This document shows, in pieces, positions 25 through 5,680 of a DNA stretch of 5,680 bases. The notes under the pieces are model-generated. The model saw only the letters and a list, made by a program, of their open reading frames with translations. It did no database searches and was not told the DNA's origin. Source of the DNA: Candidatus Tectimicrobiota bacterium (GTDB lineage: Bacteria > JACPSX01); the NCBI GenBank assembly GCA_016193065.1, contig JACPSX010000033.1, positions 2,958 through 8,637 on the forward strand. The letters are read 5' to 3'. The position numbers were made by a program, and so were the translations under genes. How positions within the stretch are numbered: the first letter of the stretch is position 1; each line of letters starts with the position of its first letter.

Positions 25-1515
25 ATGGCCAACCAAGATTGGACCCCACCGATGCAACGAACAGAGATCCTTGTTGTCGATGACGAAAAGGAGACCCGGG
101 AACTGCTGAAGGAGTTCCTTTCCCGCCAAGGGTTTGTTGTAAGCGTGGCGGGCGGCGGGCAGCGGGCCATCGATCTTTTGCGGGAAAAGGATTTCGACCT
201 CATGTTGGTTGACCTCAAAATGCCCCGGGTGGACGGTTTCGAAGTCCTCAAGGAAATCGGGCAGCTCGGCAGGCGCACCCTTGCCATTGCCATGACGGGG
301 TTTGGAAGCACCCAAACGGCGGCTGAGGTCATGGGAGCCGGTGCTTACGATTTCGTTACGAAACCGTTCCATCTCCAGGAGCTCAAAAAGTTGATGCTGA
401 GGGCCCTGGAGGAAAAACGCTGGCGGGGAGCTAGTGGCCCTTACCCAGGCGCCGAACGGCGCACCCACTTCCGCCGCTACGAGGACCAGAAATTATTCAT
501 CGAAAACTTGGCCTTACGCCGCCAACTCCAGAGAAAGTACCGGTTTGAAAACATGATCGGCGACAGCCCGGAGATGCAGCAGGTTTTCGCACTGATTGAA
601 AAAGTCGCCGACAGCGACAGCACCGTGCTGATCTGCGGGAAAAGTGGCACCGGCAAGGAGTTAGTGGCGCGGGCCCTTCACTTCAACAGCCATCGCAAGG
701 ACCGCCCGCTCATCCCGGTCAATTGTGGGGCCATCCCCGAAGCCCTTTTGGAGAGCGAACTTTTCGGCCATGAGAAGGGGGCTTTTACCGGGGCCTCCGC
801 GACCCGGATCGGTCGTTTCGAGCTGGCCCATCAGGGGACCATTTTCCTGGACGAAATTGGGGATATGAGTCCCGCCCTCCAGGTGAAAGTCCTGAGAGTC
901 TTGCAGGAACAAGAATTCGAGCGCATCGGGGGGACCAAGACCATAAAGGTGGATGTGCGGATCATCGCCGCTACAAACCAGGATCTCGAGCAGGCGGTGG
1001 CGAACCGTACATTCCGGGAAGACCTGTACTACCGTCTCAATGTGATCCCCATTTTATTGCCGCCTCTGCGCCGCCGCCAGGGCGACATTCCTCTCCTCAT
1101 CAACCACTTCTTGGAGCGCTTTAACAGGGAGAAAAATAAGCATATTCTTGGGATTACCGATGAGGCCATAAAGTATTTGATGAACTATGATTGGCCCGGC
1201 AACGTGCGGGAACTGGAAAACCTGATTGAGCGCCTCGTGATCCTAAAAGAGGCTGGCACCATCGAGATCGAGGATTTGCCGAAAAAGTTCTTCGGGGCCC
1301 GCTCCGATGGAAATTTTCCGCAGTTTGATATTCCCGATCAGGGCATTTCCCTCAAGGAGGTCGTAGACCGTTTCGAAAATCAAATAATTCTTCGCGCCCT
1401 GGAAAAGTCGGACTGGGTGAAAAACAAAGCCGCCCGTTTGTTAGGAATGAACCGTACCACCCTGGTCGAGAAATTGAAAAAGAAGCACCTCGCGCAGCCT
1501 TTGTCAAAATCCTGA
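25..1515 (+). CDS. NtrC-family sigma54-dependent response regulator (receiver, AAA+, Fis-type HTH)
   Basis: A cytoplasmic enhancer-binding activator that uses ATP to open promoters bound by sigma54-RNA polymerase. Numbered from the ATG at 25 (496 aa), the receiver spans about 13-130, with acidic pocket D19-D20, phosphoacceptor D63 (VDLKMP), switch T91 and K113 (TKPF). A linker of about 45 residues follows. The AAA+ domain has Walker A GKSGTGKE at 205-212, an intact sigma54-contacting GAFTGA loop at 252-257, Walker B FLDE ending at D276-E277, the arginine-containing [11 protein letters not shown] at 330-340 and [10 protein letters not shown] at 390-399. The C-terminal Fis-type helix-turn-helix at about 467-487 reads [20 protein letters not shown] chose the ATG at 25 because AGGTGG at 10-15 is a fair ribosome site nine bases upstream. 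The frame is open to the left edge, so ATG at 1 is possible, and ATG at 52 would also leave a full receiver. The Walker A has K where GESGTGKE is usual. The recognition helix resembles that of FleQ/FlrA, but those proteins usually have a degenerate receiver, so no symbol is given. Family call is near certain; the regulated pathway is not. Confidence 0.95.
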
Positions 1516-1556: not shown

Positions 1557-1572
1557 TGGCACGGGGCTGGCG
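1557..1572 (+). promoter_or_regulatory. Weak sigma54-like promoter element
   Basis: TGGCACG at 1557-1563 is a perfect -24 element. After four bases, TGGCG at 1568-1572 is a poor match to the -12 consensus TTGCW. The required GG-N10-GC spacing holds (1558-1559 and 1570-1571). If used, transcription would start near 1583 and leave a leader of about 119 bases. It lies inside a small CCCCG/CGGGG inverted repeat (1550-1566). The site at 1645-1660 is the better candidate, and this one may be a chance match in GC-rich sequence. Confidence 0.25.
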
Positions 1573-1644: not shown

Positions 1645-1660
1645 TGGTACGAATCTTGCT
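1645..1660 (+). promoter_or_regulatory. Sigma54 (RpoN) promoter for the TPR-kinase-regulator operon
   Basis: TGGTACGAATCTTGCT matches the sigma54 consensus TGGCACG-N4-TTGCW at every defined position but one (T for C at 1648). The preceding base, C1644, also fits. The GG at 1646-1647 and GC at 1658-1659 are exactly ten bases apart, as the family requires. Transcription should start near 1671, giving a leader of about 31 bases that contains the GAGGAG ribosome site of the TPR gene. A sigma54 activator encoded just upstream and candidate enhancer repeats 128-161 bases upstream of the start support it. The match is seen; its use and the identity of the activator are inferred. Confidence 0.75.
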
Positions 1661-1683: not shown

Positions 1684-1689
1684 GAGGAG
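1684..1689 (+). promoter_or_regulatory. Ribosome binding site of the TPR gene
   Basis: GAGGAG lies 12 bases before the ATG at 1702. The spacing is slightly long, but no closer purine-rich motif exists, and the ATG at 1702 opens directly into a signal peptide, so this start is favoured. Confidence 0.6.
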
Positions 1690-1701: not shown

Positions 1702-3816
1702 ATGCGTGTGGGCGTAGGGATCCTCCTGGTGACCATTGCGATTGGGGGGGCTGGCATCGCAGCCGCCGCCGAGGGACAAGTCGGCAGCAAGCCGGCCAGC
1801 CAACCCCCCGTTGAAAAAGGTCCCGAGAAGAACGACCAGGAAATCTACTTTTTGGCCCTCAAGCTGTTCCAGAGTCGTAACTACGCCCTGGCCAGGAGGC
1901 AGCTTGCCCGTTTGGCAAAGGAATTCCCGAACAGCCGCCTCCGGGAAAGCGCCGACACCTTGCGGGCCGACAGCTATTTTTACATGGCCAAGCAAGCAGG
2001 GAAAAAGCAATTCTTTCCGGTCATCGACGAATATCGCGATCTGCTCCAGAGATATCCCCGCTCCGCCATGGCCCCCTGGTATCAGGTACAGGTTGGCCGC
2101 AGCTATGGCGCCATGGGCTATTATTACGAAGCTGAAGCGATGTTTCAGATTTTCATTGAGACCTACCCGAAGAGCCGTTATTTTCCCTACGCCCTGTTGG
2201 GACTCGCGGAGACCTATTACGTTCTGCAGCGGTTTGCGGAAGCGCAAGTGATCTACGAGAAGGTCAGCGAACAATTCAAAGGTTCAGCGCCGGGAGCCGA
2301 GGCCAGTTATGGGATCGGAAATACGTTTTATCGCCTCGGCCAGTTTGAGAGAGCCGAGATCTTCTACCGCAAGGCCATGGATTCCTACCCGCGAGGGGGG
2401 ATTTCCTCTGCCGCCACCTTGTTTGCCATGGGTGAGACGCTCTACCAGCGCGCAAAATACGCCGAGGCGCGGCGGGTCTTCTTTGATCTCCTCAACCTCC
2501 ACCCGGCGGATCCACTGAGCACCCGAGGGCTGGCCCGGATCGGGGATTCTTACCGGCGTCTGGGGCAGATCAGGGAGGGCAAGCAAATCTATCAGGAGGC
2601 GGCGCTGCGCTATCCCTATGAGGAGGGCGGGTACATCAGCCGGATCCGGCTTGCCGATATGGAAGGAGAAGCCCTCCGCCAGCCGAAACCCCTGCCGAAT
2701 CCGATTCAGTGGGCGTCATCGCAAGCCCGTCAGGACCCTCTGGAGGTCTACCGAGAGGTGGCCCGCGCCCAACTCACTCCGGCGCTCAGCGAGGTTGCAT
2801 TGATCCGGCTCGCCTCCCGGCAAAAGGAGAGTAAACAGTTCCGGCAAGCCCTCGAAACATTGAAGATCCATCAGACCCAATATCCGTACGGAGTTCTGGC
2901 GGATCAAACCGCGGCCCTCGTCCGCCAGACCGCCCAGGAGCAGGTCGCCTTTTATTCCGGGCTGGGGCGCCACAGTGCCGTGGTCGACCTTTATCAGAAA
3001 ATGCGCCGGGATGTTTTGGACGAAGCCGCCAGCCCGGAAACTTTGCTGCAAGTAGGCGAGAGCTTTGCCGCCCTGGGGCTTCTGGAGCCTGCCATGGAAA
3101 TCTACCGGGACCTCCTGGAGAGGAAAAAACAGAACATTCCGCGGGACCGCCTGTTGTTCCTGCTCGGAGAAGCTCGCTGGGCCAGCGCGGACGGCGCCGG
3201 AGCCGCGGAGCTTTTCTCCACGCTCCAGAAGAAATACCCGAGTTCCCCCTGGCGTCCCATGGGGCTGCTGCGTCTCGGAGAAATTGCCGTAGCGCAAAAC
3301 GAACCGGAGCGGGCAGAGCGCTTCTTTGAACAAGCGCTCCAGGCCAACCCGAAGTTTCCCGGTGCTCCCCTGGCGCTCTACCACGAGGGGCGCCTGTCCT
3401 TGGCGCGGGGAAAATTCGAGGCAGCAGCCGGCTTTTTCGCCCGCGCCATACAATCTTACGTGCCGGAGGTGACTGCAGGCGAGGCCCACGTAAAGGCCAG
3501 CTACTTCCTCTTGGGGGACAGCCTTTTCCAGACGGGGAAGACCAAGGAGGCCCTCGAGGCGTACGGAAAAGCGCGACAGCTCTACCCGAATTCTCCCCAG
3601 TCCCCCTGGGCCTCTCTCCAGATGGGGCTAGGTTACCGGAAGCTCGGCGCCCCGGAAAAGGCCCGGGAAATTTTCAAGACTTTAAGTTCCGGCAAGGACG
3701 ATCCCTTCCTCGCCCAAGTAGCGGCGAATTTTCTGGCCGATCTGGAATGGCAGGCCAAGGTGCAGCCCAAGATCCAGCCTTTCCTGGATCCCCCCAAGGA
3801 GGCGGCAACGCCATGA
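1702..3816 (+). CDS. Secreted tetratricopeptide-repeat protein, function unknown
   Basis: A 704-residue protein made almost wholly of TPR-type helical hairpins, which normally act as protein-protein docking scaffolds. Residues 1-23 look like a Sec signal peptide: one arginine, a hydrophobic stretch, then an alanine-rich cleavage site probably after A23. There is no lipobox cysteine, and I find no cysteine in the whole protein, which suits a periplasmic location. A proline- and lysine-rich stretch (about 28-45) is followed by repeats at about 50-85, 105-155, 160-195, 200-233, 236-271 and 272-308. A less regular segment (about 315-345) and a second TPR block to about 680 follow. Many units share the CpoB/BamD-like pattern of small residues, aromatics and a closing 'YP', for example ETYPKS and RQLYPNSPQ. 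It is first in an operon with a sigma54-type promoter, and its stop overlaps the kinase start. The kinase is soluble, so direct contact between the mature proteins is unlikely. TPR fold and secretion are well supported; the role is unknown. Confidence 0.92.
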   Translation: MRVGVGILLVTIAIGGAGIAAAAEGQVGSKPASQPPVEKGPEKNDQEIYFLALKLFQSRNYALARRQLARLAKEFPNSRLRESADTLRADSYFYMAKQAGKKQFFPVIDEYRDLLQRYPRSAMAPWYQVQVGRSYGAMGYYYEAEAMFQIFIETYPKSRYFPYALLGLAETYYVLQRFAEAQVIYEKVSEQFKGSAPGAEASYGIGNTFYRLGQFERAEIFYRKAMDSYPRGGISSAATLFAMGETLYQRAKYAEARRVFFDLLNLHPADPLSTRGLARIGDSYRRLGQIREGKQIYQEAALRYPYEEGGYISRIRLADMEGEALRQPKPLPNPIQWASSQARQDPLEVYREVARAQLTPALSEVALIRLASRQKESKQFRQALETLKIHQTQYPYGVLADQTAALVRQTAQEQVAFYSGLGRHSAVVDLYQKMRRDVLDEAASPETLLQVGESFAALGLLEPAMEIYRDLLERKKQNIPRDRLLFLLGEARWASADGAGAAELFSTLQKKYPSSPWRPMGLLRLGEIAVAQNEPERAERFFEQALQANPKFPGAPLALYHEGRLSLARGKFEAAAGFFARAIQSYVPEVTAGEAHVKASYFLLGDSLFQTGKTKEALEAYGKARQLYPNSPQSPWASLQMGLGYRKLGAPEKAREIFKTLSSGKDDPFLAQVAANFLADLEWQAKVQPKIQPFLDPPKEAATP
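3796..3802 (+). promoter_or_regulatory. Ribosome binding site that sets the kinase start
   Basis: AAGGAGG is a full Shine-Dalgarno match ten bases before the ATG at 3813, inside the last codons of the TPR gene. It decides in favour of 3813 over the upstream in-frame ATG at 3747, which lacks a comparable site and would add 22 residues of low-complexity Gly/Ala/Pro sequence. Confidence 0.8.
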
Positions 3817-5234
3817 ACCTGCTTCCCCGGAATTCCGGTCTAATGGAATATTCCTCCTTGAGCTCAAGGGCGGAGGAGAAATTCGAACCCATTCCCTCGG
3901 AAACCGTCGCGCCCACGCTGCGTCTTCTTCCGGAAGCGGTGCGGAATCCCGAGGAAAGCTCGGAGGGAAAGCTTCTGGCGGCGGCTTTTGAGTCCTTCAC
4001 TCGCGCTACTGAAACCCTGCGGCGCTCCTACGGACTGCTCCAGAAGCGGGTAAAAGACCTGACCCTGGAGCTACAGCAAAAGAATCTGGAGCTGGAGAGA
4101 AACTTGCGGGAGAAGGAAGAGGTCAAGAACTACCTCAACAACATACTGGAAAGCCTGCAAACCGGAGTGGTGGTTCTGGACATCGCCGGGCGGGTTCGGC
4201 TGTTCAACCGGGCCGCCCAGCAGCTCACCGGCCTCGACTCCCGCCAGGTTCTGGGCGCCCCCTGGCAGGAAAATTTACGTCCTTACCTGCCTCCAGCAGG
4301 GTTTGATTCCTTTTCCCCGGGCTCCGGGCAGCTCGTGATGGAGACGGAATTCCCGATCCGCAACCGCGGGTTTACGGATTCCTTGATGCTGCGCGTCTCC
4401 CTGGCTCCCATGCAGGCTCAGGAGGAACAGGTGGCGGGAGTGGTGGTTCTCCTCCAGGACGTCACCCGCCTCAAGCATCTGGAGCAGGAAGGTCAGCGCC
4501 GCAGCCGCCTCCTGGCCATGGGGGAGATGGCCGCCCATATGGCCCACGAGATCCGCAATCCCCTGGGCAGCATCGAACTCTTTGCCACCCTCCTCAGGAG
4601 GGAACTGGACCACGATCCGGACAAACGGGATCTGGCAGAGCGGATCAGCTCCGGAGTCAGAAGCCTGAACCACATCCTGACGAACCTGTTGCTCTTTACG
4701 AGAAGCCAGAAGCCCACAGCGGATCTGCTCGGAGCGAACGATCTCGTTGCCGAAACCTTGCAGTTTGCCCGCTACCTCCTGGAACAAAACCGGGTCGATC
4801 TGGGCGTCGATTTCAGCCCCGAGAACCCGCAGATTCAGGGGGATCGAGAACTGCTCAAACAGGTGTTCCTCAACATGATCCTGAATGCCGTGGAAGCCAT
4901 GCCGGCAGGGGGAAACCTGCGGGTATCCACCCGTCTGCTTTCCTGTCCCGGCATCGATCCCGGCAGGCGCCAGGATCGCTGCAAGACGGACAGAGAGGTC
5001 GAAATTGGGTTTTGCGATTCGGGTGTGGGAATCCCTGAAGATCATATTTCCCGGATCTTTGATCCTTTCTTTACGACCAAGGACTCAGGTACCGGGCTCG
5101 GCTTGGCCATTGTCCACAATATCGTCGCGGCGCACGGCGGGCGGGTGCAAGTCAACAGCAAGCCAGGCCAAGGGACCGACTTGACTCTGATCTTCCCCGG
5201 CGGGCAACCGGCAGGAGTTTCAGGAGCGCACTGA
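3813..5234 (+). CDS. Soluble PAS-domain sensor histidine kinase (NtrB/FleS/FlrB-like)
   Basis: A 473-residue cytoplasmic histidine kinase with no membrane segment. Order from the ATG at 3813: variable N-terminus (1-60), predicted coiled coil (about 63-108, rich in Leu, Glu, Lys and Arg), PAS domain (about 106-217, ending DVTRLKHLE), HisKA with phosphoacceptor H245 in MAHEIRNPLG, and HATPase (about 345-465) with N-box N354/N358, G1 box DSGVG from D402, F box FDPFFTTK and G2 box GTGLGL at 426-431. All catalytic motifs are intact, so autophosphorylation and phosphotransfer are expected. An insert of about 20 polar residues (375-395), with cysteines C378 and C390, sits just before the strand leading into the G1 box. 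The start overlaps the TPR stop as ATGA, implying translational coupling, and the regulator gene begins two bases after its stop, making that protein the likely partner. The kinase core and lack of membrane anchor resemble FleS/FlrB of flagellar regulation, but NtrB-like kinases of other pathways look similar, so no symbol is assigned. Confidence 0.95.
   Translation: MNLLPRNSGLMEYSSLSSRAEEKFEPIPSETVAPTLRLLPEAVRNPEESSEGKLLAAAFESFTRATETLRRSYGLLQKRVKDLTLELQQKNLELERNLREKEEVKNYLNNILESLQTGVVVLDIAGRVRLFNRAAQQLTGLDSRQVLGAPWQENLRPYLPPAGFDSFSPGSGQLVMETEFPIRNRGFTDSLMLRVSLAPMQAQEEQVAGVVVLLQDVTRLKHLEQEGQRRSRLLAMGEMAAHMAHEIRNPLGSIELFATLLRRELDHDPDKRDLAERISSGVRSLNHILTNLLLFTRSQKPTADLLGANDLVAETLQFARYLLEQNRVDLGVDFSPENPQIQGDRELLKQVFLNMILNAVEAMPAGGNLRVSTRLLSCPGIDPGRRQDRCKTDREVEIGFCDSGVGIPEDHISRIFDPFFTTKDSGTGLGLAIVHNIVAAHGGRVQVNSKPGQGTDLTLIFPGGQPAGVSGAH
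5222..5226 (+). promoter_or_regulatory. Ribosome binding site of the second response regulator
   Basis: AGGAG, inside the final codons of the kinase gene, lies ten bases before the ATG at 5237. It supports that start and suggests that the two genes are translated from one message. Confidence 0.65.
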
Positions 5235-5236
5235 AC

Positions 5237-5680
5237 ATGAACAAGCAAAATACTTCCTCCCTGTCGATACTTGTGGTCGATGACGAGGCCGACATGAGAC
5301 TTGCACTTTCGGCGGCCCTGGGCCGGGCGGGTTGTGAAGTCGAGGCGGTGTCAAGCGGCCTTGAGGCGCTCTACAAGCTGGAAAAGCGGACCTACGACGT
5401 GGTGATCAGCGATGTTCGCATGCCTCACGTCAGCGGCCTCGACGTACTCCGCAAAGCCAAAGAGCACAACCCGCAGGTCTCCTTCATCATGATCACGGCC
5501 TACGGTACGATTGAGAACGCCGTGGAGGCAATGCGCGAGGGGGCGACGGACTATATCTTGAAGCCTTTCTCCGTAGAGATTCTGGAAGATGCAGTTCGCC
5601 GGGTTTGGAAACGGAAGGGACCGCGGGTGGGAAAAGAAGAACCTGCCGGACGATCCCAGGAGGTTCCCCTCAAGGGAGAG
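5237..5680 (+). CDS. Response regulator, receiver domain (3'-truncated by window edge; probable NtrC/FlrC type)
   Basis: The first 148 codons of a response regulator, open to the right edge with no stop. The receiver spans about 9-125, with acidic pocket D15-D16, phosphoacceptor D59 (SDVRMP), switch T87 and K109 (LKPF), all intact. The AYGTIENAVEAM stretch followed by GATDYILKPF is typical of NtrC-family receivers, including FleR/FlrC, so a sigma54-type AAA+ domain and a Fis-type helix-turn-helix probably follow. That part is not in the window, and a different output domain is possible. After the receiver comes a charged, proline- and glycine-containing linker (about 126-148). The gene begins two bases after the kinase stop and is most likely the kinase's phosphotransfer partner. 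The truncation is an effect of the window, not evidence of a broken gene. Confidence 0.93.
   Translation, partial: MNKQNTSSLSILVVDDEADMRLALSAALGRAGCEVEAVSSGLEALYKLEKRTYDVVISDVRMPHVSGLDVLRKAKEHNPQVSFIMITAYGTIENAVEAMREGATDYILKPFSVEILEDAVRRVWKRKGPRVGKEEPAGRSQEVPLKGE

Follow-up and report, generated by a model that had tools for sequence, protein, structure and literature searches.

A conserved predicted sigma54 promoter between a FleQ/FlrA-like activator gene and a TPR-kinase-regulator operon: a probable flagellar cascade in little-studied phyla

The element at positions 1645–1660 (forward strand) of the window, by which we mean the whole 5,680-nucleotide stretch analysed here (positions 2958–8637 of contig C16, in a draft genome of 2.9 Mb), is, from its sequence, almost certainly a genuine sigma54 promoter. 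It very probably serves a flagellar operon of class II, at which a FleQ/FlrA-type activator encoded directly upstream would drive a cascade of the FlrBC/FleSR type. Cascades leading from FleQ to FleSR and from FlrA to FlrBC are established (PMC7064773), and the one described here is of that known kind, found in little-studied phyla and with differences of its own.

The element, TGGTACGAATCTTGCT, reads TGGTACG-AATC-TTGCT and differs from the −24/−12 consensus at one base; GG at 1646–1647 and GC at 1658–1659 give the GG-N10-GC spacing within near-consensus flanks. Coordinates and letters were exact on rechecking, in agreement with the first-pass annotation, which had described a near-consensus site with a single mismatch. 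No other place on either strand of the window fits the consensus with one mismatch or fewer. When three mismatches are allowed, the window contains fewer matches than shuffled sequences, so it is the full-length fit of 1645–1660 that counts; this lack of excess is the one result in line with a chance match, a reading that we regard as most improbable because it is contradicted by the intergenic concentration of such sites across the genome and by their conservation in orthologous gaps, both described below. Transcription is predicted to start near 1671, and a Shine-Dalgarno sequence, GAGGAG (1684–1689, forward strand), lies between this start and the ATG of the TPR gene at 1702, an arrangement that had also been proposed from the first reading. 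A second sigma54-like match, TGGCACGGGGCTGGCG (1557–1572, forward strand), scores 10.2, compared with 17.9 for 1645–1660; it was rejected as a promoter and is probably none.

In the genome as a whole, exact matches to TGGYACG-N4-TTGCW number only five, including 1645–1660. A hand-made position weight matrix, whose weights follow the published consensus, gave at a score of at least 15 eleven intergenic sites, 1645–1660 itself among them, against one coding site in 183 kb of contigs chosen solely for carrying a sigma54 activator, where intergenic DNA makes up only 14% of the sequence (P = 5e-9). The reversed-motif control returned no match on these contigs. Over the 267 kb of contigs scanned in all, part of which were chosen for pattern matches, the counts were 17 intergenic and one coding, again with none for the control. 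For seven of the 16 activator genes, a sigma54 site (score at least 14) follows on the same strand no more than 600 nt downstream, and an activator followed by its predicted sigma54 target is thus, in sequence terms, a habit of this genome. Such sites follow five further activators (L093, L094, L092 with its site at 12651, L091, and L101), several of them preceding cytochrome, oxidoreductase-like, or metal-transport-like genes.

The draft nature of the assembly (294 contigs, 86% complete) has several consequences. The rpoN gene was not found in it; the 15 strong activators of the genome, together with its clear intergenic sigma54 sites, imply that sigma54 is used and that the genome probably has rpoN. 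Since fliF was not found in the draft either, the full cascade cannot be pieced together from this genome, a point against the proposed reading. The genes rplU, rpmA, obg, and proB, named from their translations, lie behind the window on the opposite strand, and a run of N just before position 2958 of the contig, between rplU and the activator gene, makes the activator's own promoter unreadable in this assembly. The sequence set searched contained no relative closer than domain, and neither a plasmid search nor an Rfam search returned a match.

In orthologous loci of Nitrospinota, Nitrospirae, and Syntrophaceae, a forward-strand TGGYA-N6-TTGCW precedes the TPR gene in all 21 of the 21 gaps that are informative, which, many of the Nitrospinaceae being close kin, amount to about six independent comparisons; the background is at most 0.018 matches per 300 nt. 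Only gaps present in full were taken as informative, which includes L122, with its site at 5301, and leaves out L140, with 166 nt upstream. These loci were collected by one kinase-based scan, the TPR protein as query having returned generic TPR matches only and nothing useful. Conservation of the GG-N10-GC element in orthologous gaps, which the first-pass annotation had proposed as a check, was therefore found throughout. The promoter is kept also where the upstream gene is divergent, a point that bears on whether most expression of the operon might come from transcripts running on out of the activator gene, or from a promoter of sigma70 type, with sigma54 in a minor role. The genes do lie on one strand, separated by a 186-nt gap in which no terminator-like site was found; yet this gap contains no sigma70-like promoter, and what the different phyla have in common there is the sigma54 element, so that we consider read-through or a sigma70-type promoter as the main source of transcripts to be quite improbable.

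The activator gene (25–1515, forward strand; start codon most likely at 52) encodes a REC-AAA+-Fis protein, in which Pfam and alignment identify the receiver, an AAA+ domain with GAFTGA, and a Fis-type HTH. FleQ was among the top PDB matches, and FleQ and FleQ mutants were the best matches to the AAA+ domain. The phylogenetic tree, built from the AAA+ domain only, took in 13 other activators of the genome, the operon regulators, NifA, NtrC1, NtrC4, LuxO, and NtrX, FlrA being absent from it; in this tree, Pseudomonas aeruginosa FleQ nests within the clade of the activator with moderate support (88/89), and the operon regulators form a separate clade (100/93). The recognition helix RTTLVEK is common to the activator and FleQ (stretch RRTTLVEKMRK in the latter); it occurs in none of the other activators of the genome but recurs in nearly all orthologs, every one of which, including those that lack a receiver, carries RTTLVEK or RTTFVEK. 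By these sequence features, the activator belongs with the FleQ/FlrA flagellar master regulators. Its receiver has the acidic pair, the phosphoacceptor Asp, the Thr, and the Lys all intact (D, D, T, K) and does not share the phosphorylation-incompetent state of the P. aeruginosa FleQ receiver (PMC10723142), which is why we file it as FleQ/FlrA-like and not as a FleQ with the same input. The full set of c-di-GMP contacts of FleQ (R144, R185, R334, E330) is not found in it either: R185 and R334 are kept, R144 is replaced by E166, and E330 by H352. Together, the intact receiver and these two changes suggest that its input signal is likely to differ from that of FleQ. Receiver-less orthologs of about 350 residues occur in Nitrospinota and in one Nitrospirae genome (L182, L183, L195, L175, and L120), and in two Nitrospinaceae (L183 and L195) a flagellin gene adjoins them. 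Elsewhere in the draft genome, an activator with a divergent receiver (L100; C277, 6283–8336) adjoins a flagellar rod-like gene and is possibly another flagellar regulator.

A putative upstream activating site, TGTCA-AAATCC-TGACA, spans 1502–1517 and overlaps the end of the activator gene. The centre of its GTCA-N6-TGAC core (1503–1516) lies 135 bp before the −24 element, and it has the same arms and the same spacer as the FleQ consensus GTCaNTAAAtTGAC quoted in PMC6120874, where this consensus is described as unreliable genome-wide in Pseudomonas fluorescens. Seven of 20 orthologous gaps (L120, L133, L123, L124, L129, L138, and L164) contain a box in which at least nine of the ten arm bases match, 128–187 bp upstream of the sigma54 site (single-locus shuffle P up to 0.017); the remaining gaps reach six to eight arm bases, and no convincing box was found in L130/L139, L125, and several close Nitrospinaceae. 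Within the genome, a perfect GTCA-N6-TGAC occurs on contig C35, where a sigma54 site (score 16.2) follows after about 176 bp and precedes fliL-fliM-fliN and export genes, and contig C276 has a FleQ-type box matching at 7 of 8 positions 148 bp upstream of another sigma54 site. On the latter contig (L107, 5670–8354), flagellin, fliD, and fliS-like genes are followed by the box and the site and then by genes for a receiver-domain protein and a YcgR/PilZ-like protein, which from their sequence context are a possible third target of the activator. Two further contigs, C28 and C127, have GTCA-N6-TGAC matches within genes, which are probably due to chance.

We also considered the core of the box, TGTC-N8-GACA, as a ZraR- or NifA-type site and set this aside, the recognition helix and the published consensus fitting FleQ better. 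A palindrome with the same core precedes a ZraP-like gene on C239 (L097, 3768–7575), where a kinase and an activator are followed by the palindrome TGTCGAAAGTTCGACA (6956), a sigma54 site (7068), and the gene of a small secreted protein rich in Gly and Met; this unit looks like a ZraPSR-type envelope/metal response.

The sequence of the box and of the recognition helix thus makes 1502–1517 the probable binding box of the activator. The promoter might instead be driven by the operon's own FlrC-like regulator (gene from 5237), in positive feedback, or by another of the 16 activators: in Nitrospinaceae it is kept where the activator gene does not adjoin the operon, the box is weak or missing in some gaps, and a second, different inverted repeat, GACAG-AATCGG-CTGTC, lies at 1535–1550, 33 bp downstream of the first. 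Its arms differ from those of the FleQ box and its role is uncertain; the probability of two perfect repeats with a spacer of six in the gap is about 0.008. However, a FleQ-type box and a FleQ-type recognition helix occur together here, adjacency of activator and operon is kept in three lineages (the activator lies directly upstream of the operon in L133, L130, L139, and L120), and in Nitrospinaceae the helix is retained by activator orthologs located away from the operon, two of them adjoining flagellin as noted above. On balance, a different driver is unlikely, and we keep the FleQ/FlrA-type activator as the one that would act at 1645–1660.

The TPR gene (1702–3816, forward strand) is the first of three genes. 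It overlaps the kinase gene (3813–5234, forward strand) by ATGA, and the regulator gene (5237–5680, forward strand) starts 2 nt after the latter, hence we regard the three as one operon; gene calls gave the same order in all complete orthologous loci. The TPR protein of the window, predicted to be secreted or periplasmic, has a signal-like N-terminus and TPRs (Pfam, AF2), and its orthologs align over their length. An AMIN domain is present in the Nitrospinota and L120 copies (seen in L120, L125, and L137), and the structural model of L120 shows an AMIN beta-sandwich, a loose linker, and a long TPR superhelix, which recalls the layout of PflA (signal, AMIN, linker, TPR superhelix; PMC11870540). 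No AMIN domain was found in the window copy, L133, and L130, so that the window copy lacks the full PflA-type layout. With Foldseek, the best match of the AMIN-bearing L120 model was chain K of the Campylobacter jejuni motor scaffold 9hmf (E = 4.5e-20, the next being 1.8e-15), a chain whose length suggests that it is PflA; for the window copy, this chain ranks third. VIA-align placed generic TPR superhelices first, with no motor scaffold among the best 50 matches, and TPR folds match many unrelated proteins; the PflA reading accordingly rests on domain order, context, and Foldseek. Lone TPR proteins near flagellar genes have been proposed as PflA homologs (PMC11870540), and the window protein is, from these models, probably a PflA-like motor-scaffold candidate.

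The second gene encodes a PAS-HisKA-HATPase histidine kinase (Pfam) in which no membrane helix was found, and which is therefore described as cytoplasmic and, by context, FlrB/FleS-like; its orthologs, 37–46% identical, lie in the same operon in Nitrospinota, Nitrospirae, and Syntrophaceae. The third gene is truncated by the contig end, a detail that adds to the first-pass annotation, so that only a receiver domain is seen in the window, and all orthologs with a full-length gene, FlrC/FleR-like, are sigma54 activators (REC-AAA-Fis in L133). In L133, L130, and L139 the operon continues into flgB/flgC, fliE, fliF, fliG, fliH, and fliI, and in many Nitrospinaceae the three genes are followed by flg and fli genes in similar order; these names come from translations, the FlgC-like C-terminus of L133 being confirmed by Pfam. 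A second strong sigma54 site follows the regulator gene in 11 loci (L122, L123, L126, L128–L131, L133, L134, L136, and L137). This flagellar linkage is seen in the orthologs, the window's own contig ending before it. Contig C35 ends in fliH, so that a single missing contig probably lies between C16 and C35, which would also explain the absence of fliF. Another strong sigma54 site on C35 (TGGCATGGGGATTGCT, score 18.3, L211, position 13668) lies within the flagellar cluster, between fliJ-side genes and fliK-flgD-flgE. An assignment to PEP-CTERM PrsK/PrsR/PrsT or AtoSC-type systems was rejected on two grounds: activator and kinase fail to reach the curated thresholds (421 of 502, 500 of 714, and 285 of 646 bits), and the neighbouring genes are flagellar in related loci.

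The local circuit suggested by the first-pass annotation, in which an upstream sigma54 activator switches on a second signalling pair, is supported by the box, the conserved promoter, and the gene order in other phyla; the signalling pair and its position behind the activator stand, and a flagellar nature, which goes beyond that annotation, is added by the flg/fli synteny and the grouping with FleQ. From these sequences, we infer sigma54 dependence, binding, and looping as follows. The FleQ/FlrA-type protein would bind the palindrome at 1503–1516 and loop to sigma54 RNA polymerase parked at 1645–1660, and its ATP hydrolysis would start transcription near 1671. Three co-translated products would result: the periplasmic TPR protein, the cytoplasmic PAS kinase, and the NtrC-type regulator. 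By analogy with FlrBC and FleSR, whose activity needs the export apparatus, the MS ring, and the rotor (PMC7064773), the kinase/regulator pair may act as an assembly checkpoint, the regulator opening the second sigma54 promoter for flgB-flgC-fliE and the genes that follow. Far more tentatively, a FleQ-type activator with a phosphorylatable receiver might top the flagellar cascade of Nitrospirota/Nitrospinota-like bacteria, and its first product, a PflA-like motor-spoke subunit, might also tell the kinase encoded next in the operon how far assembly has come, making scaffold, sensor, and regulator one checkpoint unit.

Work on the two-component checkpoint of flagella has been done in Gamma- and Epsilonproteobacteria. 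Its tiers, the promoter, and the box recur in Nitrospinota, Nitrospirae, and Syntrophaceae, which suggests that the cascade is older or more widespread than assumed. Moreover, the intact, altered, or missing receivers allow the input to FleQ-type regulators to be compared, and, because the gene for the TPR scaffold always accompanies that of the checkpoint kinase, a connection of motor assembly with transcription can be put to the test.

Among known systems, FlgSR of Campylobacter and Helicobacter likewise combines a cytoplasmic kinase with an NtrC-type regulator for sigma54 rod and hook genes; however, the FlgS model matches the kinase weakly (84 bits against a cut-off of 600), and the master activator present here is absent in Campylobacter (PMC7064773). 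PflA, the Campylobacter motor spoke, resembles the orthologs in signal, AMIN beta-sandwich, linker, and TPR superhelix, whereas the window copy, L133, and L130 are without AMIN and the protein is known here from sequence and models. FleQ shares with the activator the recognition helix and the GTCA-N6-TGAC box; unlike FleQ, the window activator keeps its receiver phosphorylation residues and has E166 in place of the c-di-GMP residue R144, and the Nitrospinota orthologs lack the receiver. A 2011 survey counted FleQ-like activators in a single class or phylum (PMC3162934), outside which the phyla described here lie. As a whole, the arrangement is closest in kind to FleQ-FleSR of P. aeruginosa and FlrA-FlrBC of Vibrio cholerae, with a master activator gene and a sigma54 promoter, then a cytoplasmic PAS kinase and a sigma54 regulator, and then sigma54 flagellar genes (PMC7064773), except that the operon here opens with a large TPR gene.
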